From Paramagnetospirillum magnetotacticum MS-1 (GTDB taxonomy: Bacteria > Pseudomonadota > Alphaproteobacteria > Rhodospirillales > Magnetospirillaceae): a DNA stretch of 64,000 nt. The position numbers and the translations under genes are program-made. The notes beneath the pieces are model-generated. The model did not search any database and was not told the DNA's origin. It saw only the letters and a program-made list of their open reading frames with translations. The stretch spans positions 813,501 through 877,500 of the forward strand of contig NZ_JXSL01000030.1 in the NCBI RefSeq assembly GCF_000829825.1, read 5' to 3'. This document shows positions 2-37,516 of the stretch, piece by piece (position 1 is the first letter of the stretch; every line of letters starts with the position of its first letter).

Positions 2-148
2 TCCCCCGAACGGGCCTGCTTTCGCTTCGGCACCTTCATTGCCGACGGCGCACGCCATGAGGCGATCCGCGCCGAATGGTCGCTGCGCTTTCCCCATCTG
101 GTGGAACGGTTCGGCCGCCGCCTTTTGTGCTACAGGTATCGGACATGA
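2..148 (+). CDS. 3' end of an unidentified upstream gene
   Basis: Only the last 48 codons are inside the window. The frame is open from the left edge, runs through an Arg/Phe-rich tail ending CYRYRT, and stops with TGA at 146-148. That stop overlaps the ATG of the next gene in an ATGA arrangement, the coupling used by many genes in this island, which is the main support for its being real. No domain can be named from this fragment. By position it probably belongs to the same sugar-acid or surface-glycan operon as the NeuA-type gene after it; that is inference only. Confidence 0.55.
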   Translation, partial: SPERACFRFGTFIADGARHEAIRAEWSLRFPHLVERFGRRLLCYRYRT

Positions 149-867
149 TCGACGGTCTTTCGGTTCTGGCGCTGATCACCGCGCGGGGTGGCTCCAAGGG
201 GCTGCCGGGCAAGAATGTCCGACCGCTGGCGGGCCGGCCCCTGGTGGCCTGGAGCGTGGCGCAGGCGCGGGCCTCGGCCCTGGTCGACCGGGTGGTGATC
301 TCGTCCGACGATCCCGAGATCGTCCAGGCCGCCACGGCCGCGGGCTGCGAGGCGCCGTTCATACGCCCCGCGGAGCTGGCCTCGGACACCGCCTCTTCGG
401 TTGAGGTGGCTGTTCATGCCCTGGAGGCCATCGATGGCGCATATGACATCCTGGTGCTCTTGCAGCCCACATCGCCGCTCCGTCATACCGCCGATATCGA
501 CGCCTGCCTGCGCCAGCTGGTGGACAACCGGGCGCCGTCCTGCGTCTCGGTGTGCGAAGCGGCCAAATCGCCATGGTGGATGCTGCGCATGGATGAGGCC
601 GGTACCCTGACCCGATTGCTCGAGCCGCTGGATGCCAGCCGGCGTCAGGACCTGCCCAAGGTGTTCGTCGCCAACGGCGCCGTTTATGCCGTCCGCGTTC
701 CCTGGTTGCTGGAGCAGCGGAAATTTCTCGGCGAGGGCAGCGTCGGCCATGTCATGCCCGCTGAGCGTTCGGTGGATATCGATACCGCCCTGGATTTCCG
801 CCTGGCCGAACTGCTTGCCGCCGAGTCCCTTCCGAAGTCCTCCGGAAATGACGGAGAATCGCCATGA
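145..867 (+). CDS. neuA: CMP-sugar synthetase, NeuA/LegF/PseF family
   Basis: A 240-residue cytidylyltransferase that would transfer CMP from CTP to a nonulosonic acid (sialic, legionaminic or pseudaminic type) in the cytoplasm. The nucleotide-binding signature ARGGSKGLPGKN lies at residues 13-24, the LLQPTSPLR motif at about 103-111, and a VDIDTALDF segment near the end; all are typical of NeuA/LegF/PseF, and the length fits the short form without an extra esterase domain. I chose the ATG at 145 because it overlaps the preceding stop by four bases; an in-frame ATG at 76 would add non-homologous residues. The next gene is also coupled by ATGA. Sequence alone does not say which nonulosonate is the substrate. 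LegB and LegC genes lie some 33 kb to the right, so CMP-legionaminate is a reasonable guess. Confidence 0.88.
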   Translation: MIDGLSVLALITARGGSKGLPGKNVRPLAGRPLVAWSVAQARASALVDRVVISSDDPEIVQAATAAGCEAPFIRPAELASDTASSVEVAVHALEAIDGAYDILVLLQPTSPLRHTADIDACLRQLVDNRAPSCVSVCEAAKSPWWMLRMDEAGTLTRLLEPLDASRRQDLPKVFVANGAVYAVRVPWLLEQRKFLGEGSVGHVMPAERSVDIDTALDFRLAELLAAESLPKSSGNDGESP

Positions 868-5300: not shown

Positions 5301-5434
5301 CGGCCAGCCCGCATACCAGCCCTTGCCGCCTGCCTCTGGACAGGTTTACAACGTAGGCCCGGTTCCGGTCGCCCATCCGCGGTCGGCCCCCAAGCCAACA
5401 GGCCGCCCGCCCGCGGTTCCCAGGGAGTAGCGTC

Positions 5435-6445: not shown

Positions 6446-6458
6446 GAGAGCATTGAAT

Positions 6459-8908: not shown

Positions 8909-8911
8909 ATC

Positions 8912-10844: not shown

Positions 10845-10925
10845 TCGCGGGCGGTACTGGTGGACTTTACCGGTGATTTCAGGCACCCTCCCGGCCCACG
10901 GTGACCCGCGTTTCAGAGGAAGTCG

Positions 10926-11480: not shown

Positions 11481-11501
11481 GTTTTCGGGAGTTTTGCCAG
11501 T

Positions 11502-18957: not shown

Positions 18958-18994
18958 GGCAATTTCCCCGATCGGACCTGGATGACCGATACCG

Positions 18995-20854
18995 TCACCG
19001 CTGCAGATAGACGCCGACATTACGCATCCGGGGAGTCCCCACACCTGGAGCGTCCCGGCCATCCGCCCGGGCCTTCACGTAATCGTCCGCGCTGCGCCAC
19101 ATGACCGACGGCACCTCGCCGACTTTGGTGAATCCCTCGGGAAAGAAGACGCCGTATGGCTTGAGGCAAGCCGTCAGGGCTTCAGAGAAACCAGCATTGG
19201 CCAGAACAATAAGCCGTTCGCCCGGTTGCAGCGGGTTCAGCGGAAAATACCGGCAGGTGGCATCATCGTTGGAGCGGGTGTAGTCCAGAACCGCCTCGTA
19301 CTTGTTCTTGATCACGAAGGTGGGGAACTGGAACATTTCTCCGAAACCAGGCACCCCGGCAATCAGAGCCTCTCCAGCCATGGTGCGATAGGCGAAAATC
19401 CGCCGGTTGGGAGCGCTGGCAATGTCGCCCTGCCGCAACAGGTCGCGCAAGCCATCGGCATAAAGCTTCTCCGCCAGGACGGGGCGCAGACCCTGAAGGG
19501 CGGGAATGCCTTCGAAATCGGCGAAGTCCCCCCTGGGCGAAAAACGATCCGCCAGAAATGGGATCCGGTTCATGGTCAGACTGGCAACGGGCACCATGGC
19601 GAACAGAGCCGTGGCAACCATACCTGCCCGCCGCAGACCGAGAGACGATTCCAACGAAAAGAGGCCGAAGACCGCCCCCAGAAGAACCATCCAGGGACCG
19701 ATATTGTTGGCGGCGAACTGGATCCACGATCCCAGTGATCCCGCCTCGGTGACGCAGGGCATGACCACCAGCAGAACCGTCAGCAAAAGCCAATTCCGGC
19801 CGTTGGCGGCAACGGCCCGACCATATCGGGCCCAAACAAGCAGCCCGGCCAGGAGAGCCACGGCGATGATCTGCTGCATGTAGAGATCGCGGGCATAGCT
19901 CACCACACCCAGATGGGCGAGAGCGCCGATTCCCAGAATTCCGACGGCTCCCCACAGTGGCCAGGACCAACTGCGCGGCCGCCAGGCCAGAAGCAGCGTG
20001 AAGGGCAGCAGCGGCATGACCAGCCAGAACAGCTTGCTGCGCACCGCATGCCAAAGAAAATCCACCCAGGCCGCCCCCTGGACGAAAAGCTGAAAGACCA
20101 CCGAGTGGAACGGAGCGCTGTCGATAACGATCCCCATGACCGTGCGATAACGGCTGAAATCACCGAACACCGCTCCCCAGGCAGCGGGCACCGCCAGGGC
20201 GACGGCCAGCATCACACCCCATTGGCGGACGATTTCTCCCCTCTGCGACCAGGGCCTGCCCAATAGCAAGATGGCGCTGGCAATGCCAAGGCAGACCAGC
20301 CCGCTGGGCAATCGCGCGGCCACACCCGCCGCGATTCCGAGTCCTGCCAAGCCCGCATGGGCAAGCCCCTGGACACGAGATGACGCGACCGAAGCCATCA
20401 ACGCCCCACCCGCCGCCACGTTGATGGCGACCGCGCACATCAGATAATAATTGAGGGTCAGAACATTCTTGCCGGTGAAGCTGTAGACCGCCCCCGCCAG
20501 AGCGAAGCCGAAAAGGGCGGGCAGACTGGCGGGCCAACCGATCCGCTCCGTCACGAAGCGATGGACACCGCGGGCAAGGCAGTACGACCCTGCCGCATGC
20601 AGGACCAGCGACATCACCCGGGGCAGCAGCGCACTGCCAGCGAACAGCTCCATGAAAGGCCTGATTACCCAGCTCATGCCGGTGGGCAGCATCAGTGATT
20701 CCGGGTGATTGATCCCCCACAGATACCAGGCTTCATCACTGAAGAAGAAGAATCCGTATCGGATGGTAAGGATCAGGAGGACGAAACCGAAGAGACCGGC
20801 AAGCGCCGGCACCGCGGCAAGGATAGCCGTCTCGCGGCGGATAGTAGCGTCCAT
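18995..20854 (-). CDS. large polytopic membrane protein, GT-C-like glycosyltransferase candidate
   Basis: A 619-residue protein with about ten to twelve hydrophobic segments between residues 10 and 430 and a soluble C-terminal portion of about 190 residues. The first extracytoplasmic loop (FFFSDEAWYLWGINHPES) holds an acidic Asp-Glu in the position used by GT-C enzymes for sugar transfer from polyprenyl-phosphate donors. The start at 20854 is chosen for an AAGG just upstream. It heads a three-gene minus-strand unit with the GNAT and epimerase. No specific family signature beyond the overall architecture can be claimed. Confidence 0.7.
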   Translation of the reverse strand: MDATIRRETAILAAVPALAGLFGFVLLILTIRYGFFFFSDEAWYLWGINHPESLMLPTGMSWVIRPFMELFAGSALLPRVMSLVLHAAGSYCLARGVHRFVTERIGWPASLPALFGFALAGAVYSFTGKNVLTLNYYLMCAVAINVAAGGALMASVASSRVQGLAHAGLAGLGIAAGVAARLPSGLVCLGIASAILLLGRPWSQRGEIVRQWGVMLAVALAVPAAWGAVFGDFSRYRTVMGIVIDSAPFHSVVFQLFVQGAAWVDFLWHAVRSKLFWLVMPLLPFTLLLAWRPRSWSWPLWGAVGILGIGALAHLGVVSYARDLYMQQIIAVALLAGLLVWARYGRAVAANGRNWLLLTVLLVVMPCVTEAGSLGSWIQFAANNIGPWMVLLGAVFGLFSLESSLGLRRAGMVATALFAMVPVASLTMNRIPFLADRFSPRGDFADFEGIPALQGLRPVLAEKLYADGLRDLLRQGDIASAPNRRIFAYRTMAGEALIAGVPGFGEMFQFPTFVIKNKYEAVLDYTRSNDDATCRYFPLNPLQPGERLIVLANAGFSEALTACLKPYGVFFPEGFTKVGEVPSVMWRSADDYVKARADGRDAPGVGTPRMRNVGVYLQR

Positions 20855-21020: not shown

Positions 21021-21656
21021 ATGAGCGAGCGAACCGGCGGCCTGCGCCGCATCCTAGGAGCCCCCTGGGTCTACAGACTCTATCAGGCCTTGGCCAACCG
21101 CCCGGACACCTGGAGCCGGATGGTCGATCGCTATGTGCGGCCATGGCCCGGAGCGGCGATCCTCGATATCGGCTGCGGGCCGGGCACCATCCTCGACGTC
21201 ATGCCCGAGGGCGTGTCCTATCTGGGTCTCGACCGCAATTCCAGCTACATCGAGGAGGCGCGGCGCCGCTACGGCTCGCGCGGGACCTTTCTGGAGCAGG
21301 ACGTCACCGACCTGCCCGCGGCCGAGCGGAGCTTCGATCTGGTGATGGCATTCGGCCTGCTTCACCATGTGGACGACGATGGCGCCCGTGCCGTAATGAC
21401 GGCGGTCAGCCAGCGGCTGCGACCGGGCGGGCGGCTGATCACGCTTGATCCGGTCTTCGTCGATGGCCAGTCGGCCATGGCCCGCTGGATCGCCGCCAAT
21501 GACCGGGGCCGGTTCGTGCGCAGCCCCGAGGGTTACCGCAGCCTGGCCGAGACCGCCCTGCCAGCGGTAACGGTGGAGATTCTTCACGACCTGCTGCGCA
21601 TTCCCTTCAGCAGCATCGTGATGATTTGCGGCACTGGCGATCAGGAGCGCCCATAA
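21021..21656 (+). CDS. class I SAM-dependent methyltransferase
   Basis: A 211-residue methyltransferase with motif I ILDIGCGPGTILDVMP at about 47-62, the acidic post-I residue in LGLDRN, a QDVTDLP motif II, FGLLHHVDD, and RPGGRLITLDP, all typical of the Methyltransf_11 type. It stands alone between two minus-strand blocks; its 3' end overlaps the end of the KdsB-like gene by 16 bases in convergent orientation. The acceptor is unknown: glycan or lipid O-methylation is a guess from context. Confidence 0.83.
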   Translation: MSERTGGLRRILGAPWVYRLYQALANRPDTWSRMVDRYVRPWPGAAILDIGCGPGTILDVMPEGVSYLGLDRNSSYIEEARRRYGSRGTFLEQDVTDLPAAERSFDLVMAFGLLHHVDDDGARAVMTAVSQRLRPGGRLITLDPVFVDGQSAMARWIAANDRGRFVRSPEGYRSLAETALPAVTVEILHDLLRIPFSSIVMICGTGDQERP

Positions 21657-22426
21657 GCCTTGGCGTTCCAGAGAGGATCGGTCGCCATGGTCTTGGTGAC
21701 CCGGGCCAGATCCTCGGCATTGTCCACGGTGTCCGAGACGATGGGGGTAACCAGCACTTTCATGGAACGGCCCATCTCGATGACCCGGTTATAGTCGATG
21801 CCCTCGACCTCTTCGTTATAGGTCATGCCGAAGGCCAGGAACTCCTTCAGGAAGGCGGGCTTGAAGGCGATGATGGCCGTATGCTTGTACACGCGCTCGG
21901 GCAGTACGCCGTGCTTCTTGGGGCTGGGGATGGGGGCGCGCGACATGTAGATCAGTCCGCCGTCGCTATCGCGGAACAGCACCTTGACGCGGTTGAGGTC
22001 GTGAAACTCTTCGATCAGGGTCAGGGGCTCCACCAGGGTCGAGGATTCCAGCCCCGGATCGGCGGCATGGGCGGCGATGATCTGATCCAGCATGTCGGGG
22101 TGGACCAGCGGCTGGTCGCCCTGGACGTTGATCACCAAGTCATAGGGACCATCGGTCTTGGCCACCTCTTCATAGGCCCAGGCGATGCGGTCGTTGCACA
22201 TGTCGAATTCAGGCGTAACAACCACCTCGCCACCCAAGGAGCGAATGTCGGCGGCCACCTCCTCATTGGGGGTGGCGACCACCACCTTGGTGAGCGTCTT
22301 GCACAGGCGGGTGCGCAGAGTGCAATGGCCCACCATGGACATGCCGTCGATGGTCTTCAGCGGCTTGCCGGGAAAGCGGCCGGAATTCATGCGGGCGGGA
22401 ACGATGGCGATGGTGCGGAGAGTCAT
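21641..22426 (-). CDS. KdsB-like cytidylyltransferase (CMP-keto-acid synthetase family)
   Basis: A 261-residue nucleotidyltransferase. IVPARMNSGRFPGKPL at about 8-23 is the CTP-binding loop of KdsB, INVQGDQPLV holds the metal-binding Asp, and the YKHTAIIAFKPAFL and NAEDLARV segments follow KdsB order. The usual KdsB substrate motif (His, Ser-Gly-Thr-Asp/Glu-Arg) is replaced by a FDMCNDR segment, so the activated sugar acid is probably not ordinary Kdo. It is the last gene of a 17-gene minus-strand run and lies 22 bases after a radical SAM gene. The start ATG at 22426 agrees with family length. Confidence 0.82.
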   Translation of the reverse strand: MTLRTIAIVPARMNSGRFPGKPLKTIDGMSMVGHCTLRTRLCKTLTKVVVATPNEEVAADIRSLGGEVVVTPEFDMCNDRIAWAYEEVAKTDGPYDLVINVQGDQPLVHPDMLDQIIAAHAADPGLESSTLVEPLTLIEEFHDLNRVKVLFRDSDGGLIYMSRAPIPSPKKHGVLPERVYKHTAIIAFKPAFLKEFLAFGMTYNEEVEGIDYNRVIEMGRSMKVLVTPIVSDTVDNAEDLARVTKTMATDPLWNAKAYGRS

Positions 22427-22448
22427 CTGCTGTCCTCGGCGTCCAAGG

Positions 22449-24452
22449 TCAAGAAAGGTGGGGAGGGGTGGCGGGCGGCGAAGCGGCCCGGGTCCGGTCG
22501 AGCAGAAGAGCATCGAGGCTGCCCGCCCCAACCGAACCATAAATTCCGTAGAGGCTTGATACGACGTCGCCGTCATAATTTTCGACGAAGGCATCGATGG
22601 CGGGATGACGCCGCGTCTCCTGGAGATCGGTATGGGAGCCCAAGGCCGCCGCGATGGCGGGATAGTCGATGATCTTGGCCTCGACCGCGGCCAGGGCGGC
22701 ATCGAAAACGGTGGCGGCGACACCCATCTCTTCAACCATGATCCGCCGCAACGCCCGACCCATGGCCGCTCGGTAAATCCCTCCACGCTCAAAGAACAGT
22801 GCGATGGCGTAATGGATATTGTAGCGCTTTTGCTGGTCGATGGATCCCGCCAGACTGTCGCCTTCGGGCCTGCCGTCCGTGCCCATGCGCCGCCCATCGG
22901 CGGAAGGCTGGGGACCAAAGACGAACTCCCCGGCGGTATCGTGCTCGAAAGCCTGCAGCAGGGGCCGCAAATCGGGATCGTCCATCTCGGCCAGGCGGTC
23001 GAACAGGGCCATGATGCCGCGATCCCCGCAGACCCGGTCATAGAGGACGGTGACATCGTCGAACAGACGATAGGTCAGGAAGACGCCGACCAGGAAATGC
23101 AGCTTCCGCACATAGGCCTGGTCTTCCATGGTGAAATCATCGGTTGCCACCACGATTTCCTGATACTCGCAGGCGGGGATGCCAGCGAAGATCCCCGACT
23201 GGCCCCACAACCGGCGCCAGCCGGTCTTGAGGCCGTATTTTTCCCGACTCTCCGTCGAGGCCAGCTCCGATCCAGGCAGCAATTCGGTGGGATAGAGGCG
23301 GATCTCGGTCCGCAGCGGGTCGGCCTGGCGGAAGATGCGGTCCAGACCCTGGATGAAACTCTGCCGGGTCTCGCCCGGCAGGGGATAGATGATCTCCACC
23401 ATCGACTCGACGTTGCCAGCCCCCAATTCGACTTGTATCCGGGCATATGTCTCATCGTCGAGATTGGCCCGCTTGGTGTTGGCCAGCACCGCCTCGGTCA
23501 TGGACTGGCGGGCTAAGGAGACCTTGGTCATATCGCGCAGCAGGCGGGCGACGTCGATCACCCGGTCACCGGAATTCTTGGCGAAGTAGAGATAGAGCTT
23601 GTCGGGCCATCCGGTGCGCTCGCGCATGTCGTGGACATGCCGGGCGATCTCCACGTCCCGGGGCAGCAAACCGAAATTGGCGTCGCCGAAGAACAGGCGG
23701 GACGAATTGGCGGACCGCTGGGCGATATAGTCGATCTCGGCGATGGCCCGGCCGACGGAGAAGCTGCTGACCTTGTTGAGCAGACGGCTGCCCCAGCAGC
23801 AGAAAGTGCAGGCATAGGGACAACCGCGAACCGTCTCCACCATGGGCCCCAGATTGGCGATCTTGAAATAGGGATCCATCAGGCCGGTCAGATAGGGAGA
23901 CGGCAATTCGTCCAGGTCCTTCGACCGGCGCAGCAGGGCGTCCACCGTCCGCCCGCCTTCCCGCACACCGGCGGGAGTACGGATGAACAATCCGGGAAAG
24001 GCGCCTTCGTACACGGCCTGACGACAGGTGCCAGGAGCCGATGCCAACATCAGCTCGATCAATTCGGCAAAGGCGAACTCGCCAGCTCCCGCGACATAGG
24101 CATCCATGCCTGCGGCCCGCGCGAAGAACTCGTCCAGCCAGGGCTGATCGTCGCGGGCGAAGCATGGCCCGCCCATAACGACCACGCTCTCGGGCGAGCA
24201 CTCTCGCGCATGCGCCGCAAGCTGAATGTTGATGTTGCGGTTCCAGGAATAATTGGCCAAACCGAGAAGGTCGGGGGGCGCCCGCCGGATGGTTTCGGCC
24301 AGTTCGGTCGGATCGATGAACATGGAGATCTCGACCCGGGCGCCGAAGCGCTGGCGAGCATAGGCAGCAAGATAGCCGATCCCCAGGGGAAAGCAGGTCC
24401 CGCCGGTAAAATAGCGCAGATCGCCCAGGTAGATTTTCAAGGCCGGGGTCAT
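22449..24452 (-). CDS. radical SAM enzyme of the B12-binding-like class, long form
   Basis: A 667-residue protein. Residues 1-150 form a Rossmann-like region with the VVMGGPCFA strand (about 91-99) but no visible cobalamin-ligating Asp-x-His-x2-Gly. The radical SAM motif Cys-x3-Cys-x2-Cys (GCPYACTFCCWG) lies at residues 211, 215 and 218; FGDANFG and EIIYPLPGET follow. About 250 C-terminal residues beyond the barrel have no motif I recognise. The start ATG overlaps the stop of the GT2-dehydrogenase fusion gene (ATGA), so the two are made together. Chemistry unknown; carbon methylation, thiomethylation or rearrangement of a sugar intermediate are family possibilities. Confidence 0.83.
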   Translation of the reverse strand: MTPALKIYLGDLRYFTGGTCFPLGIGYLAAYARQRFGARVEISMFIDPTELAETIRRAPPDLLGLANYSWNRNINIQLAAHARECSPESVVVMGGPCFARDDQPWLDEFFARAAGMDAYVAGAGEFAFAELIELMLASAPGTCRQAVYEGAFPGLFIRTPAGVREGGRTVDALLRRSKDLDELPSPYLTGLMDPYFKIANLGPMVETVRGCPYACTFCCWGSRLLNKVSSFSVGRAIAEIDYIAQRSANSSRLFFGDANFGLLPRDVEIARHVHDMRERTGWPDKLYLYFAKNSGDRVIDVARLLRDMTKVSLARQSMTEAVLANTKRANLDDETYARIQVELGAGNVESMVEIIYPLPGETRQSFIQGLDRIFRQADPLRTEIRLYPTELLPGSELASTESREKYGLKTGWRRLWGQSGIFAGIPACEYQEIVVATDDFTMEDQAYVRKLHFLVGVFLTYRLFDDVTVLYDRVCGDRGIMALFDRLAEMDDPDLRPLLQAFEHDTAGEFVFGPQPSADGRRMGTDGRPEGDSLAGSIDQQKRYNIHYAIALFFERGGIYRAAMGRALRRIMVEEMGVAATVFDAALAAVEAKIIDYPAIAAALGSHTDLQETRRHPAIDAFVENYDGDVVSSLYGIYGSVGAGSLDALLLDRTRAASPPATPPHLS

Positions 24453-26392
24453 GGGTGATCCCCGACATCAAGGATGATCTTGAGCCTAGAGCCGCCGCGC
24501 GCCAGCTCCCAGCCTTCCGCGAAGCGCTCCAGCGGCAGGTGGCAGGCCAAGAGCGGCGACAGGTCAAGCGACGGCATCAGGCGGATGGCTTCTTCGAAAT
24601 CCTCGGCGGTGGAGCCCACCGAGCCCACCACGGTCTTGTCATAGGCGGCGATGGCCTCGAAGGAGAATTCCTTGCGGGCATAGGGCAGCCCGAGCAGCAG
24701 CAAAGTAGCGCCCGCCGGGGCGGCATGCAGCGCCTTGTCCAGAACTTCCGGGTGGCCGGTGGCCTCGACCACCACATTGAACTCGCCCAGGCGGTCCAGG
24801 TCGGTGCTGGTCTCGATACTGTCGCGGCCTTTGAATACGTCCAGCCGGGACTGATTGCGGTCAAAAATGGTGACGGGGAAGCCGCGCCGCGCCAGTTCCA
24901 CAGCGCAGATATGGCCGATACAGCCCGCCCCCGTCACGGCGGCGCGCTTGGCCCCGCCGGGTGCGGCGGCCAGGGCGGGCATCAGACGGCGCATGCCCTT
25001 CAGCACCACGGCCAGGGGCTCGCACAGAGCGGCCTGGGCCATGTCGGTGCCCGCGGCCAGCTTGTGGACGAAGCGGGCGGGAACGGTGACGAAATCGGCA
25101 TAGGCGCCGTTTCGGCGGAACACCCCCAGCTCGGTGCGCTCGGCGCAGCCGATGAAATTGCCGGCCCGGCACTCGGCGCAGCTGCCGCAGCTTTGAATGC
25201 ACTCCACCACCACCGGATCGCCTTCCTTGAAGGCGGTGACGTTCTGGCCCATGGACACGACGTGGCCCGAGAATTCGTGGCCGGGCACGATGGGGTACTT
25301 GGCCATGCCGTTCTTGTAATAGCCCAGCGCCCCCGAAAGAATTTCCAGATCGGTGGCGCAGACGCCCACATGGGCCGTGGCGATGACCACGTCGCCGGGC
25401 TTGCACTCGGGCATTTCCATCTCTTCCAGCGCCACCTTGCCGGGGCCGTGGATCACCACGGCACGGGTGGAGCGGTCGAACAGGGCGTCCTCCTGCTCCT
25501 GGCGGGTCTCCAGAGGATGGGCCTCCAGCAGACCCTTGAAGGTGCCGATATTGCGGTTGACGCGGAAATAGACCACTTCGCGCAAGCGCTGGCCCAGTGT
25601 GAGCCGCGCCGCCACTGGATTGTCTTTGGGGTTGAAGGCATTGATCAGATCGCTGGCGGTGTTGCGTAACTCCGCCCATGTCTCGCCCAGCACCGTATTG
25701 GGCCCCTTGATCCCCATGCGCCGCGCCGCCACCGCTTCGCGGTAATAGCGCCGCCGGATCTGGCGCCAGCTTTCCTCATGCAGGTGATAAAGCCGGGCAT
25801 CAGGGCGGTAGACCACGCGAAAGCCCTTGTCCATCCAATGACGCGCCCAGCCGATATCCTCCAGGCCCGTCAATTCCTCGTCGAAGCCATACTGTTCCCA
25901 CAGATCCTTGCGGATGGCCGAATTGGCGTTGTTGACGCACCAGCGTGCCGGGCTTTCCTCGCGGCCATGGGGGCCAAAGGTCCGATCGAAATCCTCGGCC
26001 TCGGAGAACTTGGAGCAGGCCTTGCCCAATTGGCGGCCATAGCTCATGGCCACCGTGTCGTCCCTGAGCGGCTCGACCAGATTGGCGAGCCAATGCTCGT
26101 CGCAGGGTTCCGTATGGGCCGAGGCGATGGCGATGAACCGGCCCCTTGCTTCACGGATACCCGCGTTAAGGGAATAGCCGAAGGTGAAGTCGTGGCTGGA
26201 GATGCGCAGCACCTGATCGGCACGGGCCTCGGCGATCTCGCGCGTGCGGTCGAAAGAACCGGAATCGACGATGATCACCTCGAAATCGCGGTAGCTCTGG
26301 CGGTCCAGCGCGTCGAACAGGCCGGGCAGGTATTTCTGCTCGTTGAAACAGCGGATGATGACCGAGGTTTCGACGCTCGAAGGCTCAGCCAC
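24449..26392 (-). CDS. fusion of GT2 glycosyltransferase and zinc-dependent alcohol dehydrogenase
   Basis: A 647-residue two-domain protein read in one frame without interruption. Residues 1 to about 300 are a GT2 domain: SVIIRCFNEQKYL, VDSGSFDRT, a SAHTEP acidic motif in place of the usual Asp-x-Asp, and GLEDIGWARHW. Residues 308-647 are a medium-chain dehydrogenase with catalytic zinc ligands Cys345 and His372-Glu373 (PGHEF), structural-zinc cysteines 402, 405, 408 and 416, and a Rossmann VTGAGCIGHICAV motif. Either half is full length for its family. It overlaps the preceding hydroxyacid dehydrogenase gene by eight bases and the next by four. It may oxidise or reduce a sugar and transfer it, but coupling of the two activities is inference. 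Confidence 0.85.
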   Translation of the reverse strand: MAEPSSVETSVIIRCFNEQKYLPGLFDALDRQSYRDFEVIIVDSGSFDRTREIAEARADQVLRISSHDFTFGYSLNAGIREARGRFIAIASAHTEPCDEHWLANLVEPLRDDTVAMSYGRQLGKACSKFSEAEDFDRTFGPHGREESPARWCVNNANSAIRKDLWEQYGFDEELTGLEDIGWARHWMDKGFRVVYRPDARLYHLHEESWRQIRRRYYREAVAARRMGIKGPNTVLGETWAELRNTASDLINAFNPKDNPVAARLTLGQRLREVVYFRVNRNIGTFKGLLEAHPLETRQEQEDALFDRSTRAVVIHGPGKVALEEMEMPECKPGDVVIATAHVGVCATDLEILSGALGYYKNGMAKYPIVPGHEFSGHVVSMGQNVTAFKEGDPVVVECIQSCGSCAECRAGNFIGCAERTELGVFRRNGAYADFVTVPARFVHKLAAGTDMAQAALCEPLAVVLKGMRRLMPALAAAPGGAKRAAVTGAGCIGHICAVELARRGFPVTIFDRNQSRLDVFKGRDSIETSTDLDRLGEFNVVVEATGHPEVLDKALHAAPAGATLLLLGLPYARKEFSFEAIAAYDKTVVGSVGSTAEDFEEAIRLMPSLDLSPLLACHLPLERFAEGWELARGGSRLKIILDVGDHP

Positions 26393-27320
26393 GCAGACCG
26401 TCCAACAGATTCTTCAAGGTGGAATGGTGGATGCGCTCCCAGGCCTTGGGGCTGGAATTGCTGTTGTGGGGCGCCAGCATGACGTTGTCCATACCCAGCA
26501 GAGCGCTGGTCTTGGGCAGCGGCTCGTGCTCGAAGACGTCGAGTGCGCAGCCAACGATCTTGCCCGATTGCAGGGCGCGCACCAGGGCCTCTTCCTGCAC
26601 CACCGGGCCGCGCGCCGTGTTGACCAGCACCGAACCCGCCTTCATGCGCTTGAAGCGCTCGTCGTTGAACAGCAGATAGGAGGTGGGGTTGAGATCACAG
26701 CATACCGAGACAAAGTCCGACTGCTCCAGCAGCGAGTCCAGGTCCATCATCTCCACACCCACTTCGGCGACGAAGGCCGGGTCGATGGTGCGGATGTCGT
26801 TGCCCAGCAGCCGCGCCCCGAAGGGCTTGGCCCGGCGCAGCACGGCCGAGCCCATGCAGCCCACGCCCACCACGCCGATGGTGGATTCGTTCAAGGCGCG
26901 ACCGGGGATCTTGTCCCAGATACCGGCCTTCATCATCTTGTCCATCCACGGCAGATTGCGGGCGAAGGACAAAATGTAGCCCAGTGCCGTGTCGGCCACC
27001 GGCTGGGTGAAGGCGTCGAGCGTGCGCCCCGTGGGGATGCCCTTGGTGGCGGCATAGGCGGAATCGATGGAATCGATGCCGGTGCCCCATTTGGAGATGA
27101 CCTTGAGATTGGCGGCCGCATCGATCACCGTCTTGGTGATGCGGTCGTCGCCGCAGACGATGCCATGGTACTTGGCGATGATCGGCAGCAGGTCGGCCTC
27201 TTCCAGGCGCTCCTGCACATCGGCCACGGTGATCTCGATGTCGTGCTCGGCGAACCAGGGGCGGAAGCGGTCGATCACCGGGATCATGTAGGGGGCGCTA
27301 ATCAGGACTTGCCAGGTCAT
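26385..27320 (-). CDS. D-isomer-specific 2-hydroxyacid dehydrogenase (SerA-like)
   Basis: A 311-residue NAD-dependent dehydrogenase. It carries the VVGVGCMGSAVLRRA dinucleotide motif at mid-protein, NTARGPVVQEEALV with the substrate-binding Arg, and a CALDVFEHEPL Glu; the late His lies in MLAPHNSNSS. It would interconvert a 2-keto and a 2-hydroxy acid. It is shorter than full SerA and has no regulatory domain. Being embedded in a sugar-acid operon, upstream of a KdsB-like enzyme, suggests a 2-keto or 2-hydroxy acid sugar precursor rather than serine synthesis. Confidence 0.85.
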   Translation of the reverse strand: MTWQVLISAPYMIPVIDRFRPWFAEHDIEITVADVQERLEEADLLPIIAKYHGIVCGDDRITKTVIDAAANLKVISKWGTGIDSIDSAYAATKGIPTGRTLDAFTQPVADTALGYILSFARNLPWMDKMMKAGIWDKIPGRALNESTIGVVGVGCMGSAVLRRAKPFGARLLGNDIRTIDPAFVAEVGVEMMDLDSLLEQSDFVSVCCDLNPTSYLLFNDERFKRMKAGSVLVNTARGPVVQEEALVRALQSGKIVGCALDVFEHEPLPKTSALLGMDNVMLAPHNSNSSPKAWERIHHSTLKNLLDGLRG

Positions 27321-27375
27321 GGTGACTCCGAAGCGACGGTCGTGCCCGTCTTTCTCGCCCTTTGGCGCCCGTGCG

Positions 27376-28020
27376 TCAAGAATTGCGCGTCAGCACCACC
27401 CGGCACGGCGAGCCGTCGGCGCCGATCAGCTTCAACGGCAGGCAGACCAGTTCGTATTCACCGGGATCGATGCCACGCATGTCCAGACCCTCGACCGCCA
27501 CGATTCCGGCCCCCAGCAAAACGCGATGAGTGGTCGGTTCGGCATCGGCGAATCGTTGCACCGACAGATAGTCGATTCCAACCAACTTGATCCCACGCTC
27601 CACCAACCATTGCGCCCCCGCCGGAGTAAATGCGATGAAATCGGTGAAGAAGGGATGGTTGGGCTGATTCCACAGGGCGGAATTGCGCGTGGCAAGCAGC
27701 AAACGCTCGCAACCGGGCGGAACGGCCAGCGCCTCAAGCTCCGCCGGGCCGATCTCGGCGACATGGTCGGGCACATGGACGACCGAGCAAGGCCCCATCA
27801 GAACATCAAGGGCAAGGGAGGCAACATCGGCGCCGTCTCGAATAAAATGAATCGGCGCGTCCAGATGGGTGCCGTAATGCACGGCGAAATTCAGACGCGT
27901 GACGTTGCAGGCGTCCCCATTATCCATGTCGGAAAGGCGGGTAAGGATGGGAAGAGGCTCGCCGGGCCAGGCGGGCACACCGGCGCCGAAAGGAAGGGTC
28001 AGGTCGAAGCGCCTGATCAT
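27376..28020 (-). CDS. cyclase-family metal-dependent hydrolase
   Basis: A 214-residue protein of the cyclase/kynurenine-formamidase-like family. The signature HYGTHLDAPIHF lies at about residues 48-59, carrying the His and Asp metal ligands, and a late EGLDMRGIDPGEY segment matches the family. Members hydrolyse amides, isatin or lactones. The ATG overlaps the galE stop (ATGA). Nothing around it belongs to tryptophan breakdown, so a deformylase, deamidase or lactonase role on a sugar intermediate is the most likely reading, though unproven. Confidence 0.85.
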   Translation of the reverse strand: MIRRFDLTLPFGAGVPAWPGEPLPILTRLSDMDNGDACNVTRLNFAVHYGTHLDAPIHFIRDGADVASLALDVLMGPCSVVHVPDHVAEIGPAELEALAVPPGCERLLLATRNSALWNQPNHPFFTDFIAFTPAGAQWLVERGIKLVGIDYLSVQRFADAEPTTHRVLLGAGIVAVEGLDMRGIDPGEYELVCLPLKLIGADGSPCRVVLTRNS

Positions 28021-29006
28021 GGCTGCTGCTTAGCTTCCCATTCCAGCGCCGAACGAACCATCAGTTCCAGATCGTCGCGCCGTGCCACCCAACCGAGTTT
28101 TGCCTTCAGCAGGCCGGAATCCGCCACCAATGCCGGAGGGTCGCCACGCCGGCGCTCGGAACTGTGAACGGGGAAGTCGCGCCCCGACACGCGGCGGACG
28201 ACGTCGATGACCTCGCGCACGGAAAAGCCGTGACCGTAGCCGCAATTGGCGATCAGCGACTCTCCCCCCCGTTCCAGATGGGCAAGCGCCAGAACATGGG
28301 CTTCCGCCAGATCGGTGACGTGGATGTAGTCGCGGATACAGGTCCCGTCGGCGGTCGGATAATCGTCGCCATAGATGGCCATGCCCTCTCGGCGGCCCAA
28401 TGCCGCCTCGACGGCGATCTTGATCAGGTGAGTCGCCACGGGAGAGACCTGGCCGCTACGCCCCCGATGATCCGCCCCAGCCACATTGAAGTAACGCAGC
28501 GCCGCAAACCGCGTGGGCGCCGTTTCACAGATGTCGGACAGCGCCCACTCCACCGCCAGCTTGGAACGCCCATAGGGGCTGATGGGGCGCAGGGCCGCGC
28601 TTTCCGAGATGGGCAGCGTGTCTGGCGTGCCGTATACGGCAGCGGTCGAGGAATAGACGAAATGTCGGATTCCGGCTTCGACACATGTTTCCACAAAGGC
28701 AAGTCCGCTTCCGGCATTGTTGCGCCAGTAGGGCAGGGGCTCGCGGAAGGATTCGGAAACGATGATGGAACCGGCGAACATCATCACGCCGCTACAGCCA
28801 TGTTCGGCCAGAAGACGGCGGACCAGGGCGCGGTCACCCATATCGCCCCGCACGAAGACGGCACCCTCCGGCACCAGGGCTTGCCTGCCCGTGGACAGAT
28901 CGTCGAGAATCACCACGGGACGGCCAGCATCGGCCAGCGCCAGGGCCACATGACTGCCGATATAGCCCGCCCCGCCGGCGATGAGAACCGGACGGGGATC
29001 AGCCAT
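28017..29006 (-). CDS. galE: UDP-glucose 4-epimerase
   Basis: A 329-residue enzyme that interconverts UDP-glucose and UDP-galactose (or the GlcNAc pair) with bound NAD. It shows AGGAGYIGSHV at about 10-20, DDLSTGR, MMFAGSIIVSES (as in short alphaproteobacterial GalE forms), SSTAAVYG, and the PYGRSK Tyr-x3-Lys pair, then LRYFNVAGAD and GTCIRDYIHVTDLA, which is diagnostic of GalE. The ATG at 29006 overlaps the preceding gene by eight bases. UDP-galactose supply for the UGM-like enzyme on the plus strand would be one use. Confidence 0.9.
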   Translation of the reverse strand: MADPRPVLIAGGAGYIGSHVALALADAGRPVVILDDLSTGRQALVPEGAVFVRGDMGDRALVRRLLAEHGCSGVMMFAGSIIVSESFREPLPYWRNNAGSGLAFVETCVEAGIRHFVYSSTAAVYGTPDTLPISESAALRPISPYGRSKLAVEWALSDICETAPTRFAALRYFNVAGADHRGRSGQVSPVATHLIKIAVEAALGRREGMAIYGDDYPTADGTCIRDYIHVTDLAEAHVLALAHLERGGESLIANCGYGHGFSVREVIDVVRRVSGRDFPVHSSERRRGDPPALVADSGLLKAKLGWVARRDDLELMVRSALEWEAKQQP

Positions 29007-30060
29007 CGGTGCCTCGGAAAACATGATCATAATCGCCATTGGCCTTGGCGAAATCGTCCAGCCGCCCAATGTCGAGCCAGTATTCACGGATGGGGAAGGC
29101 GACGACCGGCCGCTCTTGCGCCATCATCTTGGTGAGCAGGCCCGGCATGTCGCAAGGCTGGCCGGTCTCCAGATGGCCGAGCACCACCGGATCGAGGACA
29201 TAGATGCCCGCATTGATGAAATGGGTCAAAACGGGCTTTTCCTTCAAGCCGCGCACCCGCGAATTCTCCACTTCGACCACCCCATAGGGCACCTCGATAT
29301 CGTATTCGCGCACGCACATGGTCGCGGCGGCGGCTTGCTCGGCGTGGAAATCGAGCAAAGCCCTGTAGTTGACGGAGGTCAGGACATCGCCGTTCATCAC
29401 GACGACCGGACCTGACGGCATCTCGGGCAGCAGACCCAGCGCGCCCGCGGTGCCCAACTTGCCGTCTTCACGCAGATAGCGGATGTCGAGGCCCAAACGC
29501 GAGCCGTCCCCGAAGGCTTCCTCGAACTTCTCGGCCATGTAGTTGACCGCCAGGAACACGCGGCGAAATCCGCTTGCGGCCAGTTGCAGCAGAATGGTCT
29601 CCAGTAGGGGACGCCCGCCCACCGGCAGCAAAGGTTTGGGTGTCGTCGCGGTCAGCGGCCGCAACCGCTCACCCAGCCCTCCGACCATCAGAATCACCCA
29701 GTTGGGCAGTTCCTCCCCGGCCAGCAGTTCACTCTCGGTCTCCAGGCCGACAAGCACGCCGCCCGCATCCACCACCGGAAGGTGACGAAGACGCCTGCTG
29801 CGGATCAGTGCCAGCCTCTCCTGCGGCGAGGAAGAGGGCAGAGCGGTCAGCGGCTTGGGGTTCATGATCGCCGTGGCCGGCTCGTCCAGCACCAGGCCGC
29901 GCAGAATGCCGCGCCTGATATCGCCGTCGGTGATGGTTCCAAGCAACCTGCGGTCGGAATCCACCACCAGGACGATCTGGGCGGCGAAGCGGTCGAGAAT
30001 CTTGATGACGTCCAGGATCGGCACCGTTGGGCCAACCAGGATCTGGTCCCAGTTCTTCAT
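28999..30060 (-). CDS. ptmE: CBS-pair nucleotidyltransferase, PtmE-like
   Basis: A 353-residue protein. Residues 1-115 hold two CBS domains (GTITDGDIRRG and a second, HLPVVDAGGVLVG). Residues 120-350 are a sugar-nucleotide transferase with MVGGLGERLRPLTATTPKPL and the VMNGDVLT metal-site Asp. This is the layout of PtmE, the glucosamine-1-phosphate guanylyltransferase that opens the GDP-linked legionaminic acid route in Campylobacter. LegB and LegC are two and three genes upstream, which strengthens the assignment. An HddC-like GDP-heptose role is the alternative. The CBS pair suggests control by an adenylate or similar ligand. Confidence 0.83.
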   Translation of the reverse strand: MKNWDQILVGPTVPILDVIKILDRFAAQIVLVVDSDRRLLGTITDGDIRRGILRGLVLDEPATAIMNPKPLTALPSSSPQERLALIRSRRLRHLPVVDAGGVLVGLETESELLAGEELPNWVILMVGGLGERLRPLTATTPKPLLPVGGRPLLETILLQLAASGFRRVFLAVNYMAEKFEEAFGDGSRLGLDIRYLREDGKLGTAGALGLLPEMPSGPVVVMNGDVLTSVNYRALLDFHAEQAAAATMCVREYDIEVPYGVVEVENSRVRGLKEKPVLTHFINAGIYVLDPVVLGHLETGQPCDMPGLLTKMMAQERPVVAFPIREYWLDIGRLDDFAKANGDYDHVFRGTDG

Positions 30061-30092
30061 GACCTAACCCATAGCCGAGCTGAGGATCGAAT

Positions 30093-31943
30093 TCAATCCT
30101 CGGCCTCCGCTGAGGCGCCGGTCCGCCGCCAGAATGTTTCCGAGGCGGCACCGGGCCATCCACCGCCACAAAAGTGATCGAGAATTGCCTCCCTGTCAGG
30201 AGCCCGCCCCGCCGCCAGATCCGCCCCCAACGCCTCGGCGTCACTATAGACGCAAAGCGGACCGATGCAGTCCATGACCAGGGAATGGGGCCGCGGCGCC
30301 AGGGCGAAATAAGGACGGCCAAATGCCAGTGTCTCCACCAGGGCTCCCGAGTCGACGGGACCTATGACCAGATCCGCCCAGGACAGATGATCCGGAACCA
30401 GCCCGGCCTCGACGATCTCCAGACCAAGTCCGAATTCGGCATTCAGGCGGTGATAATAGTTGGGAGAATAGCCCGGATGCAGCTTCAGCCGAATCCGGCC
30501 ATAGCCCAGACCGGCCAGCATCCTGGCCACCGCCACGATGGCAGGATAGGCCTGGCTCTTGATGGCACGCAAATTCCCGCCGGCAGGTACGATGGGCAAG
30601 AGCAGGACGTTGCCCGAGCCGACGGGCGGCAGACCGTAGGGTCTATGGTCGCCCCGGACGGAAATGGGATCCAGTCCGGGATAGCCGACCCTGACACAGG
30701 GAAGTGGCGACCCAATGGCCCGTAGCCATAGCTCCTGCTGCCGACCCCAGGTCAACATTCGATCAACGCCCGGCCGCTGACCCTCCACGGCACAACGGGT
30801 GTCGGAGACGTAGTCGTGAACAAACATGCCGTTCAGCAGCTCGTCCACCTCCGCCCCCTCCCGGCGAGCCGCCAGAGACAACAGCCGCGCGGTGGGATTG
30901 GTGGCGTCGCCGACCACAACCTTGACGATACGGTTGCGACGGAGCAAGAGGCATAACGCCGCGAATTCGGCCAAGGCCGCATGCAGCCGCCCGCGACCCA
31001 GAACCGAGTTCTCCACATAATGGCGTCGCACCGCATCAGTGACGTCGGCGGGCGGCACGGCTCTCCATCGGCTGCGCAATTCCGTGATGGCCGCATCCAC
31101 GCGGGCGATTTCGAGCGCAGTCGATCGGGCGGCGCGAAGGCCGCCCAGGCGAACACCCCGGCGCAGACACTTCAGCACGAAGGCCGGCGTCTTTGGCGAC
31201 CGCCCAACGATCAGCACGGGAGTATCGCCAGGCCGATTATGGGCGATCAGGCCCTGCTCCATCATGGGATTGAGAAACAGCAAGACCCGATGAACCGTCC
31301 GGGCCGTGGCCAGGCAAGTAATGCCCTCGGCGATGGCGCAGGCCAGCCGGATTATCAGCGACCTGAACCTGGGCGGGGTCTTGGGAGCACGGCCATAGCC
31401 CAGTTCATCGGGAAAATAAGGGTCATCGCGGCTCGGAGAATCCAGTTGGTTCTCGAACACCGCACCGTGACGCCGCGCCGCATCGCGCACCACGATCTGC
31501 TTGCTCTCGTCATCAAGCAAGCCGTACTCGGTGCGCGCATCGAGCAAGACGATGCGCTCCACCGGGTAGCGGCGGCACAGACTTTCAAGGGCATGGCTCA
31601 GCCGATCCACGCCGAACAGCAGGATTTCCAGTTCACGATTGAAAGTCGCGGCAATCTCGGCCAGATCGGGGGGCAGATCCCTACACCAGTTGCCGTAGCG
31701 GACATAGACGTCGGCGGGCGGGCGGAAATCATCTAGCAGGAACTGATCGATGAACACAGCCGGACAATCGGCTCGGGCAAGGTCCTGCCACACCATCCAG
31801 TCGGTGGAGACGACAAGCGCACCCTCGACCCGCCGGGCGGCGGCAATATGGCGGGGATGCGACAGCAGAACCAGGGTCTTGAACCCACCCGCTGGCAAAG
31901 GCGCATCCAGTGGCAGGGGCGAAAAAGCAGACCGACCGGTCAT
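30093..31943 (-). CDS. putative glycosyltransferase of unknown family (616 residues)
   Basis: I do not recognise a named family. The first 180 residues look like a Rossmann region (TLVLLSHPRHIAAARRV, ERIVLLDART). The last 200 residues resemble the donor half of GT-B or capsule glycerophosphotransferase-type proteins: NVLLLPIVPAGG, RIRLKLHPGYSPNYY, and SWADLVIGPVDSGALVETLAFGRP, where an acidic residue follows a Gly-Pro loop. No membrane segment is evident. The start overlaps the legC stop (ATGA) and ptmE follows after 32 bases, so it sits inside the legionaminate genes. It could transfer the nonulosonate to protein (as flagellin Maf proteins do) or to lipid. Confidence 0.65.
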   Translation of the reverse strand: MTGRSAFSPLPLDAPLPAGGFKTLVLLSHPRHIAAARRVEGALVVSTDWMVWQDLARADCPAVFIDQFLLDDFRPPADVYVRYGNWCRDLPPDLAEIAATFNRELEILLFGVDRLSHALESLCRRYPVERIVLLDARTEYGLLDDESKQIVVRDAARRHGAVFENQLDSPSRDDPYFPDELGYGRAPKTPPRFRSLIIRLACAIAEGITCLATARTVHRVLLFLNPMMEQGLIAHNRPGDTPVLIVGRSPKTPAFVLKCLRRGVRLGGLRAARSTALEIARVDAAITELRSRWRAVPPADVTDAVRRHYVENSVLGRGRLHAALAEFAALCLLLRRNRIVKVVVGDATNPTARLLSLAARREGAEVDELLNGMFVHDYVSDTRCAVEGQRPGVDRMLTWGRQQELWLRAIGSPLPCVRVGYPGLDPISVRGDHRPYGLPPVGSGNVLLLPIVPAGGNLRAIKSQAYPAIVAVARMLAGLGYGRIRLKLHPGYSPNYYHRLNAEFGLGLEIVEAGLVPDHLSWADLVIGPVDSGALVETLAFGRPYFALAPRPHSLVMDCIGPLCVYSDAEALGADLAAGRAPDREAILDHFCGGGWPGAASETFWRRTGASAEAED

Positions 31944-33100
31944 AATCCCGCCCCGGCGGATATGACGGCGTCAAGAACCGGGCTTGGGCTGGATGGAATA
32001 TTGATCAGCCGGTCTTCCAGTGCCTCGGTCACCGCCAGATCGTCGCGCGGACAGTACCGATACATGGGCAGGCGGTGCATGGGCGTCCAGATGGGCCGAC
32101 ACTGAAGACCCCGAGCGGCGGCTCCCTCGATCACTTGCGCCACAAGATCGCGGTCTGGCCGATCGAGGATCAAGGCATTCAGCCAGAAATTCCCGGCGCA
32201 TCCGGCGCGGTCCGCCACCACCTTCACGCCGGGCAAATCGGCAAAGGCCTCCTGGTAGAGGCTGGCCAGCCTACGCTTGCGGCCGAGATAGGCGGGCAGG
32301 GCTTCCAATTGCGCGCAGCCCAGGGCCGCGTTCAGGTTGGGAAGACGATAGTTCCAGCCCACCTCGTCATGGTCGAAGCGATAGGGGTGGGAAAGCTTGG
32401 CCGTGGTGGTCAGATGCTTGGCCCGACGCGCCAGGTCGGGATCGTTGGTCAAGACGGCTCCGCCGCCGCCGGTGGTGACGATCTTATTGCCGTTGAAACT
32501 AAGCGCCGACAGCAGACCGCTCGTTCCCGTGTGGCGACCGCCGCTATAACTGCCCAGGGATTCTGCGGCATCCTCGATCAGGGGAACCCCATGCCGGGCG
32601 CAAACCTGCATCAGACCATCCAGGTCGGCGGCATGGCCGAATGTGTGCATGACCACCACCGCCTTGATCGGCCGGTCCCCATGGCGCGCGAGATGATCGT
32701 CAAGCCGGGCCGGGTCGAGACCCAGGGTCGCCTCATCCACATCCACGAACCGGCAGGAGGCGCCGAGATGGCTGACCGCATTGGCTGTGGCGATGAAGGT
32801 GAGGGACGGTAAGACGACGTCATCACCCGCCCCAACGCCAGCCAGATGCAGGCAGACCTCCAGCGCGGCGCTCCCGTTGACCGTGGCGACCGCATGGTGC
32901 GCCCCGGTGATGTCGGCCAGCATGGCCTCGAAGCGATCGACATAGGCCCCCACCGACGACACCCAGCCAGTGTCGAGGCAGTCCTTGACGTACTCCCATT
33001 CGTGGCCCTCGAAGACCGGAGCATGCAAGGGCACCGGGCCGTCAACCCGTAGGGTCCGGCGCCATACGGCTTCAAGGCGGCAGATGATCTCGTTATGCAT
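31940..33100 (-). CDS. legC: LegC-type PLP aminotransferase
   Basis: A 386-residue DegT/DnrJ/EryC1/StrS aminotransferase. The N-terminal stretch with VPLHAPVFEGHEWEYVKD and DTGWVSSVGAYV is the LegC signature. The PLP site has VNGSAALEV, EDAAESLGSYSGG, and the lysine in SFNGNKIVTTGGGG. In legionaminic acid synthesis LegC aminates the 4-keto-6-deoxy GlcNAc nucleotide made by LegB, using glutamate. The ATG at 33100 lies five bases after the legB stop at 33106. Confidence 0.9.
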   Translation of the reverse strand: MHNEIICRLEAVWRRTLRVDGPVPLHAPVFEGHEWEYVKDCLDTGWVSSVGAYVDRFEAMLADITGAHHAVATVNGSAALEVCLHLAGVGAGDDVVLPSLTFIATANAVSHLGASCRFVDVDEATLGLDPARLDDHLARHGDRPIKAVVVMHTFGHAADLDGLMQVCARHGVPLIEDAAESLGSYSGGRHTGTSGLLSALSFNGNKIVTTGGGGAVLTNDPDLARRAKHLTTTAKLSHPYRFDHDEVGWNYRLPNLNAALGCAQLEALPAYLGRKRRLASLYQEAFADLPGVKVVADRAGCAGNFWLNALILDRPDRDLVAQVIEGAAARGLQCRPIWTPMHRLPMYRYCPRDDLAVTEALEDRLINIPSSPSPVLDAVISAGAGL

Positions 33101-33105
33101 GGCGC

Positions 33106-34152
33106 TCAGATATTGTAACGGTCGGCTTTGTAGAAACCGAGATTGGCCGGATCGCGGAACCACTCCACCGTTTCGGCCAGGGCACGATCAAAACCGTCGC
33201 CACCGCCGTATCGCGGTGACCAGCCCAGCAGCCGGGCCGCCTTGGCATTGTCACCCCACAACCGTTCGACCTCGCTCTTTTCCGGGCGCAGGCGCGCCTC
33301 CTCGCATTCGATCTCCACGTCGCAGCCAACCGCCCGTGCGATGGCCCGCGCCGTATCGCCGATGGAAATTTCGAAATTCGACGCCGCATTGATGGTCTCG
33401 CCCTCGATGCCCTCGGCCTCCATGGCGGCAATGAAGGCCCGCACGGTATCGGCGACGTAATTGAAGTCGCGGGTGGGATGGACGGCGCCCAGCTTGATCT
33501 TTCTCCGTCCGGCCAGAAGCTGGGTGATGATGGTGGGAATCACCGCCCGCGCCGATTGCCGGGGGCCGAATGTGTTGAACGGCCGCAAGATGGTGACCGG
33601 AGTTGCGAAAGAACGCCAGAACGCCTCGGCCATCTGGTCCGCACCGATCTTGCTCGCCGAATAGGGAGACTGCCCGACCAGCGGGTGGTCTTCCGTGATG
33701 GGCACGAAGCGGGCCGTCCCGTAAACCTCGCTGGTGGAGGTGTGAACCAGCCGCCCCACGCCGAGGTCACGCACCGCCTGCAATACGTTGAGAGTCCCGG
33801 TCACATTGGTGTCCACATAGGTGGCGGGCGAGTGATACGAGAACGGAATGGCGATCAGCGCCGCCAGATGCAACACGGCGTCACATCCCTTGACTGCCTC
33901 GCGCACGCCGAACGGGTCGCGGATATCACCTGAAAAGACGTCGAGCGAACGCTTGATCTCCGGCTCGGAGTGATCAAGCCAGCCCCAGGAATTGAAGGAG
34001 TTGTAGCACACCATGGCCCGGACATCGTGACCCCGGCGAACCAGCGCCTCGGTCAGATGAGAACCGATGAAGCCGTCGGCGCCGGTCACGAGGATCTTTT
34101 TGGGGCTCATGGGCGTCTTCACCGATCCGGGTCCAGGGGCGGCCATACTCAT
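33106..34152 (-). CDS. legB: LegB-type nucleotide-sugar 4,6-dehydratase
   Basis: A 348-residue extended SDR. It has KKILVTGADGFIGSHLTEAL and then VCYNSFNSWGWLD, which marks LegB. HTSTSEVYG supplies the catalytic Thr with Glu in the next positions, and SPYSASKIGADQ the Tyr-x3-Lys; the RPFNTFGPRQSARAVIPTII tail is typical. It converts the GlcNAc nucleotide to its 4-keto-6-deoxy form. The ATG at 34152 has a GGAGAG ribosome-binding site; an internal ATG at 34110 lacks one. LegC follows immediately. Confidence 0.9.
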   Translation of the reverse strand: MSMAAPGPGSVKTPMSPKKILVTGADGFIGSHLTEALVRRGHDVRAMVCYNSFNSWGWLDHSEPEIKRSLDVFSGDIRDPFGVREAVKGCDAVLHLAALIAIPFSYHSPATYVDTNVTGTLNVLQAVRDLGVGRLVHTSTSEVYGTARFVPITEDHPLVGQSPYSASKIGADQMAEAFWRSFATPVTILRPFNTFGPRQSARAVIPTIITQLLAGRRKIKLGAVHPTRDFNYVADTVRAFIAAMEAEGIEGETINAASNFEISIGDTARAIARAVGCDVEIECEEARLRPEKSEVERLWGDNAKAARLLGWSPRYGGGDGFDRALAETVEWFRDPANLGFYKADRYNI

Positions 34153-37515: not shown

Positions 37516-37516
37516 G

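Follow-up and report, generated by a model that had tools for sequence, protein, structure and literature searches.

The pathway to legionaminic acid that proceeds through guanosine diphosphate (GDP)-linked sugars and ends in its cytidine monophosphate (CMP)-activated form has been described in Campylobacter (Schoenhofen 2009), and a legionaminate (Leg) gene cluster is known from Plesiomonas shigelloides (PMC4481668). Here, we analysed a 64,000-nucleotide stretch of the 4.52 Mb genome of Paramagnetospirillum magnetotacticum MS-1 (assembly GCF_000829825.1, contig NZ_JXSL01000030.1, positions 813,501 to 877,500; hereafter the window), in which ten minus-strand genes between 34152 and 21641 form a run that opens with legB and legC. 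Like the two described systems, the island around this run holds genes for LegB, LegC, LegG, LegI, a putative LegF-type enzyme and a PtmE-like enzyme. Unlike them, however, these genes are split on two strands about 20 kb apart, LegH, PtmA and PtmF have no assigned genes, and the run continues with genes for GalE, a cyclase, a D-2-hydroxyacid dehydrogenase (HADH), a family 2 glycosyltransferase fused to an alcohol dehydrogenase (GT2-ADH) and a KdsB homologue. The latter resembles the KdsB and KpsU synthetases of CMP-3-deoxy-manno-octulosonate (CMP-Kdo) in belonging to family PF02348 and in conserving the residues for cytidine triphosphate (CTP) and metal, but differs from them in that Y185, E210 and Q211 are replaced, KdsA is absent from the locus and the partner is a 2-hydroxyacid dehydrogenase. 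We find that HADH, GT2-ADH and KdsB form a genuine second module that is conserved separately. We give an even chance to the explanation that one surface-glycan island is supplied by two stacked routes, the second of them making and using a second, non-Kdo CMP-activated acidic sugar. A first-pass annotation of the window had proposed either two stacked routes with shared regulation or one route to an uncommon CMP-activated acidic sugar, and stacked routes are the better of these alternatives.

First, the members of the second module are inherited together. GT2-ADH orthologues occur in 17 of the 317 genomes of the order, either at full length (56-85% identity) or as GT2-only forms (60-63%), at least one of which (G462) is truncated where its contig stops. 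Searching independently with HADH gave the identical 17 genomes, which represent seven family groups and ten genera; within the source genus, 7 of 17 members carry both genes, and the closest carriers include Magnetospirillum sp. SS-4 and Paramagnetospirillum marisnigri SP-1. The chance of obtaining identical sets is 1.7e-28 with genomes treated as independent and 1.3e-14 when genera are counted, although both values ignore shared ancestry, and the precision of the distribution is limited by search thresholds and incomplete assemblies. HADH adjoins GT2 in 15 of the 17 genomes (in G011 they lie on separate contigs, and contig ends intervene in G448), and module-type KdsB is present in all 17 and additionally in G044. 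It comes in two subtypes: that of the window follows GT2-ADH, the other precedes HADH, and G452 has both. In G044 (L080) the order GalE-cyclase-KdsB is followed by a match to the first 25 residues of HADH only, which looks like decay of the module. The plasmids searched gave no match to GT2-ADH, and a class-wide sample of 385 genomes, mostly from outside the order and with three candidates scored per genome, yielded no other carrier. A non-exhaustive literature search found no described pathway that pairs an HADH with a cytidylyltransferase, and the second module is apparently undescribed.

In the neighbourhoods of the 16 further genomes the HADH/GT2-ADH/KdsB set is conserved and recurs beside nonulosonate genes, which supports the stacked-route proposal of the first-pass annotation. 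LegF, LegI, LegG or PtmE lie inside the compared neighbourhoods of 13 of the 17 genomes, two of the other four being very short contigs, and the well-resolved loci each contain both a LegF-type and a KdsB-type enzyme. A mere pile-up of neighbours without a common product, as might arise in shuffled glycan islands, is quite unlikely: this island is indeed large and scrambled, with LegG, LegI and LegF moved by about 20 kb and an extra radical S-adenosylmethionine (SAM) gene inserted, but the identical distribution over 17 of 317 genomes and the conserved order across families contradict coincidence for HADH, GT2 and KdsB.

Second, the KdsB homologue of the module probably activates an acidic sugar other than Kdo. 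KdsB-family enzymes attach CMP to the anomeric hydroxyl of a 2-keto sugar acid. In an alignment to E. coli KdsB, the module enzymes keep P8, R10, K19, R78, Q98, D100, R157, R213 and D235, the positions for CTP and metal, whereas I stands in place of Y185, which we take to contribute to Kdo binding, D in place of E210 and Y or M in place of Q211. The window enzyme carries M74, I185, D210 and Y211, so that only H181 is kept from the set H181/Y185/E210/Q211, and the second subtype additionally has Q181. By contrast, Y185, E210 and Q211 are all kept in the four true Kdo enzymes that we compared, namely E. coli KdsB, the canonical KdsB of the source genome, a plasmid-borne KpsU-type enzyme beside KpsF and a plasmid-borne KdsB beside KdsA. 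The Kdo-binding part of KdsB has been assigned to its C-terminal domain (PMC3149649), and the active-site list of a KdsB homology model contains His, Glu and Gln at 181, 210 and 211 (PMC12058783). Since the altered residues are combined with intact CTP and metal positions, the substrate of the module KdsB is probably not Kdo, which lends support to the uncommon acidic sugar of the first-pass annotation. In addition, the window enzyme scores below the cut-off of all NCBIfam KdsB models (PRK05450.1-5, 191.9 versus 193; TIGR00466, 112.7 versus 155.2 bits). The source genome has a separate canonical KdsB elsewhere, and its only KdsA-family gene lies on another contig.

It is rather improbable that the window enzyme instead acts like KpsU, as a second CMP-Kdo synthetase whose Kdo goes into a capsule or glycan linker, with HADH and GT2-ADH performing unrelated tailoring. 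The protein is a KdsB homologue, KpsU-type capsule duplicates are known (for example at plasmid locus L103, beside KpsF) and the source genome makes Kdo; however, KpsU and the three other Kdo enzymes keep S74 along with H181, Y185, E210 and Q211, the run showed no KpsF-like gene, and HADH accompanies the KdsB homologue in every module genome. More generally, proteins that owe the annotation 3-deoxy-manno-octulosonate cytidylyltransferase only to similarity might have substrates other than Kdo, and positions 185, 210 and 211 offer a simple residue test.

Third, the partner of this enzyme points to how its substrate may arise. D-2-hydroxyacid dehydrogenases interconvert 2-hydroxy acids and 2-keto acids, and the HADH of the module has the conserved catalytic Arg, Glu and His, the signature APHNSNSSP and a NAD-binding fold. 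The zinc ligands of the ADH domain are likewise intact. The strict linkage of HADH and KdsB suggests that HADH supplies the KdsB substrate. In the second route as we envisage it, HADH would most likely oxidise C2 of a sugar acid, or of its phosphate, to the 2-keto acid, replacing a phosphoenolpyruvate (PEP)-condensing synthase, and the KdsB homologue would add CMP to the product. The sugar acid itself may come from the ADH domain and the cyclase, through oxidation of an alcohol or aldose followed by ring opening. Further members would be GalE, the GT2 domain and, often, an orphan protein of about 580 residues together with an ABC exporter, the cyclase being optional. We infer all of these reactions and their product from the genes and their associations. 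To our knowledge, CMP-activated 2-keto sugar acids of known biosynthesis all start from a PEP-condensing synthase, and a module that lacks a dedicated synthase and strictly ties a dehydrogenase to a KdsB with a changed pocket leads us to predict a new nucleotide sugar and perhaps new chemistry for it. The specific proposal of a synthase-independent route, in which C2 oxidation of an aldonate or phospho-aldonate by HADH replaces the KdsA or NeuB step and the changed-pocket KdsB homologue activates the product, is put forward tentatively. The E. coli K3 capsule, with its 4-deoxy-2-hexulosonic acid (Dengler 1988, cited in PMC10433991), shows that a bacterial polysaccharide can include a 2-keto sugar acid other than Kdo, a precedent in chemistry only. 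E. coli K15 was also considered as a precedent for a serA-kdsB pair and rejected, serA being only a flanking marker there.

The pairing of KdsB with HADH is repeated independently in the source genome: a second, divergent cassette of overlapping genes, KdsB2-HAD phosphatase-HADH2, lies 55 kb away (L069:8239-10627; G000:C30:756.7-759.1 kb) and recurs in relatives. Its HADH is 31% identical to that of the module, and HADH2 homologues occur in 112 of the 317 genomes; among the best 30 HADH2 loci, viewed with a flank of 1.5 kb only, KdsB2 is present in 8 and the phosphatase in 17. The same logic of C2 oxidation may hold for this cassette in relatives. A Leisingera plasmid cassette (L105) likewise combines a KdsB homologue and a HAD hydrolase with a putative acid-forming enzyme, here an aldolase-domain protein in the position that HADH occupies in the module, and on a Pseudomonas plasmid KdsA takes the corresponding place beside KdsB. 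By analogy, HADH would occupy an acid-forming slot.

Several observations weigh against this picture. GT2 lacks the ADH domain in G057 and G452, and several loci have no cyclase, which means that not all loci share the acid-forming steps. Substrate and product of the second route are predictions. The HADH family acts on many small 2-hydroxy and 2-keto acids, and the reducing direction is possible. Identity between the two KdsB subtypes of the module is only 32-42%, and a quick tree does not unite them in one clade; on these grounds one common substrate for both is not certain. The shared ancestry that the co-occurrence values ignore belongs here too, as does the divergence of LegG and LegI described below. 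Where the cyclase, possibly a lactonase, does occur, GT2 carries the ADH domain or could not be judged, and it is missing from both GT2-alone loci; this co-distribution is a weak hint at lactone making and opening. In the GT2 domain itself, the motif SAHT is invariant in 16 of 16 sequences at the place where many GT2 enzymes show a DxD-like motif.

A phosphonate pathway, with HADH as phosphonopyruvate reductase and the cytidylyltransferase activating a phosphonate, has next to no chance of being correct. Phosphonate clusters are described as commonly using nucleotidyl activation, but the PntC enzymes of that account fall in other Pfam families (PMC6697681), and no PEP mutase (PF13714) was found in the genome with positive controls, which effectively refutes this route.

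Fourth, the legionaminate half of the locus probably represents a known pathway, with its genes in two places. LegB and LegC both exceed curated cut-offs. The first-pass annotation correctly reported that the run itself lacks NeuB, LegG and LegH, but a legionaminate route without synthase and epimerase is not supported: genes of the NeuB and LegG types are found 1-4 kb outside the window, past its left edge, on the opposite strand and about 20 kb left of the run. The LegG-type (NeuC/LegG) epimerase reaches 446 bits with TIGR03568 (cut-off 235.9), and the LegI (NeuB-type) synthase reaches 393.8 bits with NeuB_NnaB, just under the cut-off of 399.65. This LegG-LegI pair is followed by a FemAB/GNAT protein and then by the PseF/LegF-type gene at the window edge, whose product scores 165.5 bits with the PseF model TIGR03584 (cut-off 205.7) and which is positionally orthologous to a gene inside the Leg cluster of P. 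marisnigri SP-1. In SP-1 the corresponding genes form an unbroken run, LegB-LegC-LegG-LegI-LegF-PtmE-GalE-cyclase-HADH-GT2ADH-KdsB-f580-ABC. Since the same set is present here in two blocks, the source genome has, apart from the unassigned LegH, a whole legionaminate-type route, though a divided one. Route one would comprise PtmE, LegB and LegC from the run and LegG, LegI and LegF from the left block, and would yield a legionaminate-type nonulosonate through GDP-linked sugars. The closest PDB relatives of the PtmE-like protein are mannose-1-phosphate guanylyltransferases, and its domain layout is at most suggestive of the use of GDP-linked sugars and of Leg as the product. Identity to the SP-1 copies is 87% for LegB, 79% for PtmE and 73% for LegF and only 47% for LegG and 46% for LegI, and the exact nonulosonate may therefore differ.

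No clear LegH was found; candidates are a GNAT gene (18439-19062), a hexapeptide transferase gene (36937-37605) and the FemAB/GNAT gene (L003:17090-18148). A complete second Leg set was not found elsewhere in the genome, which has only two NeuB genes; the other is PseI, within a pseudaminic acid cluster of PseB, PseC, PseG, PseI and a CMP transferase on another contig (C25, L005:5153-10696). Of two doubts voiced with the first-pass annotation, that a standard Leg set might exist outside the run is borne out to the extent that most of one lies nearby, whereas the suspicion that unrelated modules merely lie side by side is not, given that the association recurs across families.

An AMP-ligase gene (L003:13478-14890) and the FemAB/GNAT gene border LegG-LegI, a hint that the nonulosonate may carry an unusual acyl group. 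Acylated nonulosonates exist, and these two genes, one flanking LegG-LegI and the other between LegI and LegF, fit a single route in which HADH, ADH and cyclase make a small glycerate- or lactate-like hydroxy-acid decoration and KdsB activates a variant nonulosonate. We nevertheless consider a single route unlikely, because LegF-type and KdsB-type enzymes occur together in each well-resolved locus and KdsB-HADH pairs are also found apart from nonulosonate genes.

The radical-SAM protein has an intact CxxxCxxC motif and a B12 domain, and reaches 200 bits against a cut-off of 700 with a KedN5-family C-methyltransferase model; perhaps it methylates one of the sugars. The first-pass annotation had listed it with the run, but it does not belong to the conserved set, its gene standing between GT2-ADH and KdsB in the source genome only: in four close relatives KdsB follows GT2-ADH directly and the gene is absent, which marks it as an addition in the source genome. 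At other loci, the B12 radical-SAM genes nearby are different ones. The 616-residue protein has homologues at 31-33% identity that adjoin nonulosonate genes in loci L033 and L065 and is possibly a CMP-sugar transferase. Profile searches of this family and of the family of about 580 residues against the PDB gave no match, the two families showed no demonstrable relationship to each other (probability 1.2%), and a single-sequence AlphaFold2 model of the 616-residue protein, with a mean predicted local distance difference test score of 39, was not used. In other genomes the ~580-residue family and an ABC exporter often adjoin the module; in the source genome, a gene of this family (L070:17910-19748) and an ABC exporter (L070:403-2313) lie in the left part of the glycan island.

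All ten genes of the run were recovered with the domains that the first-pass annotation had named (Table 1), in the order LegB-LegC-616-aa-PtmE-GalE-cyclase-HADH-GT2-ADH-radical SAM-KdsB-like, so that the run does not open with PtmE-LegB-LegC as first annotated. The ATGA coupling noted there is found at three junctions (LegC/616-aa gene, GalE/cyclase and GT2-ADH/radical SAM); PtmE/GalE and HADH/GT2-ADH overlap by 8 bp, and the remaining junctions have gaps of at most 55 bp. This spacing is operon-like, and it is from gene spacing that the suggested shared regulation was judged. Likely starts are ATG 33100 for LegC and ATG 29006 for GalE, and the KdsB-like gene starts at ATG 22426, as a 471-residue reading frame would overlap the radical-SAM gene.

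Table 1. Genes of the minus-strand run and the LegF-type gene at the left window edge (window positions; percentages are identities to P. marisnigri SP-1)
Feature	Position	Strand	Evidence
LegB-type nucleoside diphosphate (NDP)-GlcNAc 4,6-dehydratase	33106..34152	-	TIGR04180 510.6 bits, cut-off 475; 87% to SP-1 LegB
LegC-type aminotransferase	31940..33100	-	TIGR04181 493.1 bits, cut-off 420; 71% to SP-1
616-aa orphan protein	30093..31943	-	without Pfam or NCBIfam match
PtmE-like CBS + sugar-1-phosphate nucleotidyltransferase	28999..30060	-	PF00571 + PF00483; 79% to SP-1
GalE-type 4-epimerase	28017..29006	-	TIGR01179 401 bits, cut-off 262
Cyclase PF04199, kynurenine-formamidase-like metal hydrolase	27376..28020	-	metal motif HYGTHLDAPIH intact
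D-2-hydroxyacid dehydrogenase (HADH), module core	26385..27320	-	PF02826/PF00389 (2-Hacid_dh/_C)
GT2 (~1-300) fused to zinc alcohol dehydrogenase (~309-647), module core	24449..26392	-	domain matches, orthologues
B12-binding radical-SAM (KedN5-like) enzyme	22449..24452	-	domain matches; CxxxCxxC at residue 211
KdsB-like CMP transferase, module core	21641..22426	-	PF02348 (CTP_transf_3); residue comparison
LegF/PseF-type CMP-nonulosonate synthetase, split Leg-type set	76..867	+	TIGR03584; 72.5% to copy inside SP-1 cluster

Upstream of LegB the same-strand run reaches 41396, with genes for a PMT-like protein, a GT2 enzyme, a hexapeptide transferase, a GFO/IDH/MocA oxidoreductase, a DegT aminotransferase and a weakly Wzy-like protein. 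The surrounding region (G000:C30, ~749-859 kb) is rich in glycan genes over at least 100 kb. Finally, a plus-strand block at window positions 2791-13711 encodes a B12 radical-SAM protein, two SPASM radical-SAM proteins, a UDP-galactopyranose-mutase-like protein and a WbuC cupin, which we read as further unusual sugar chemistry in the island.

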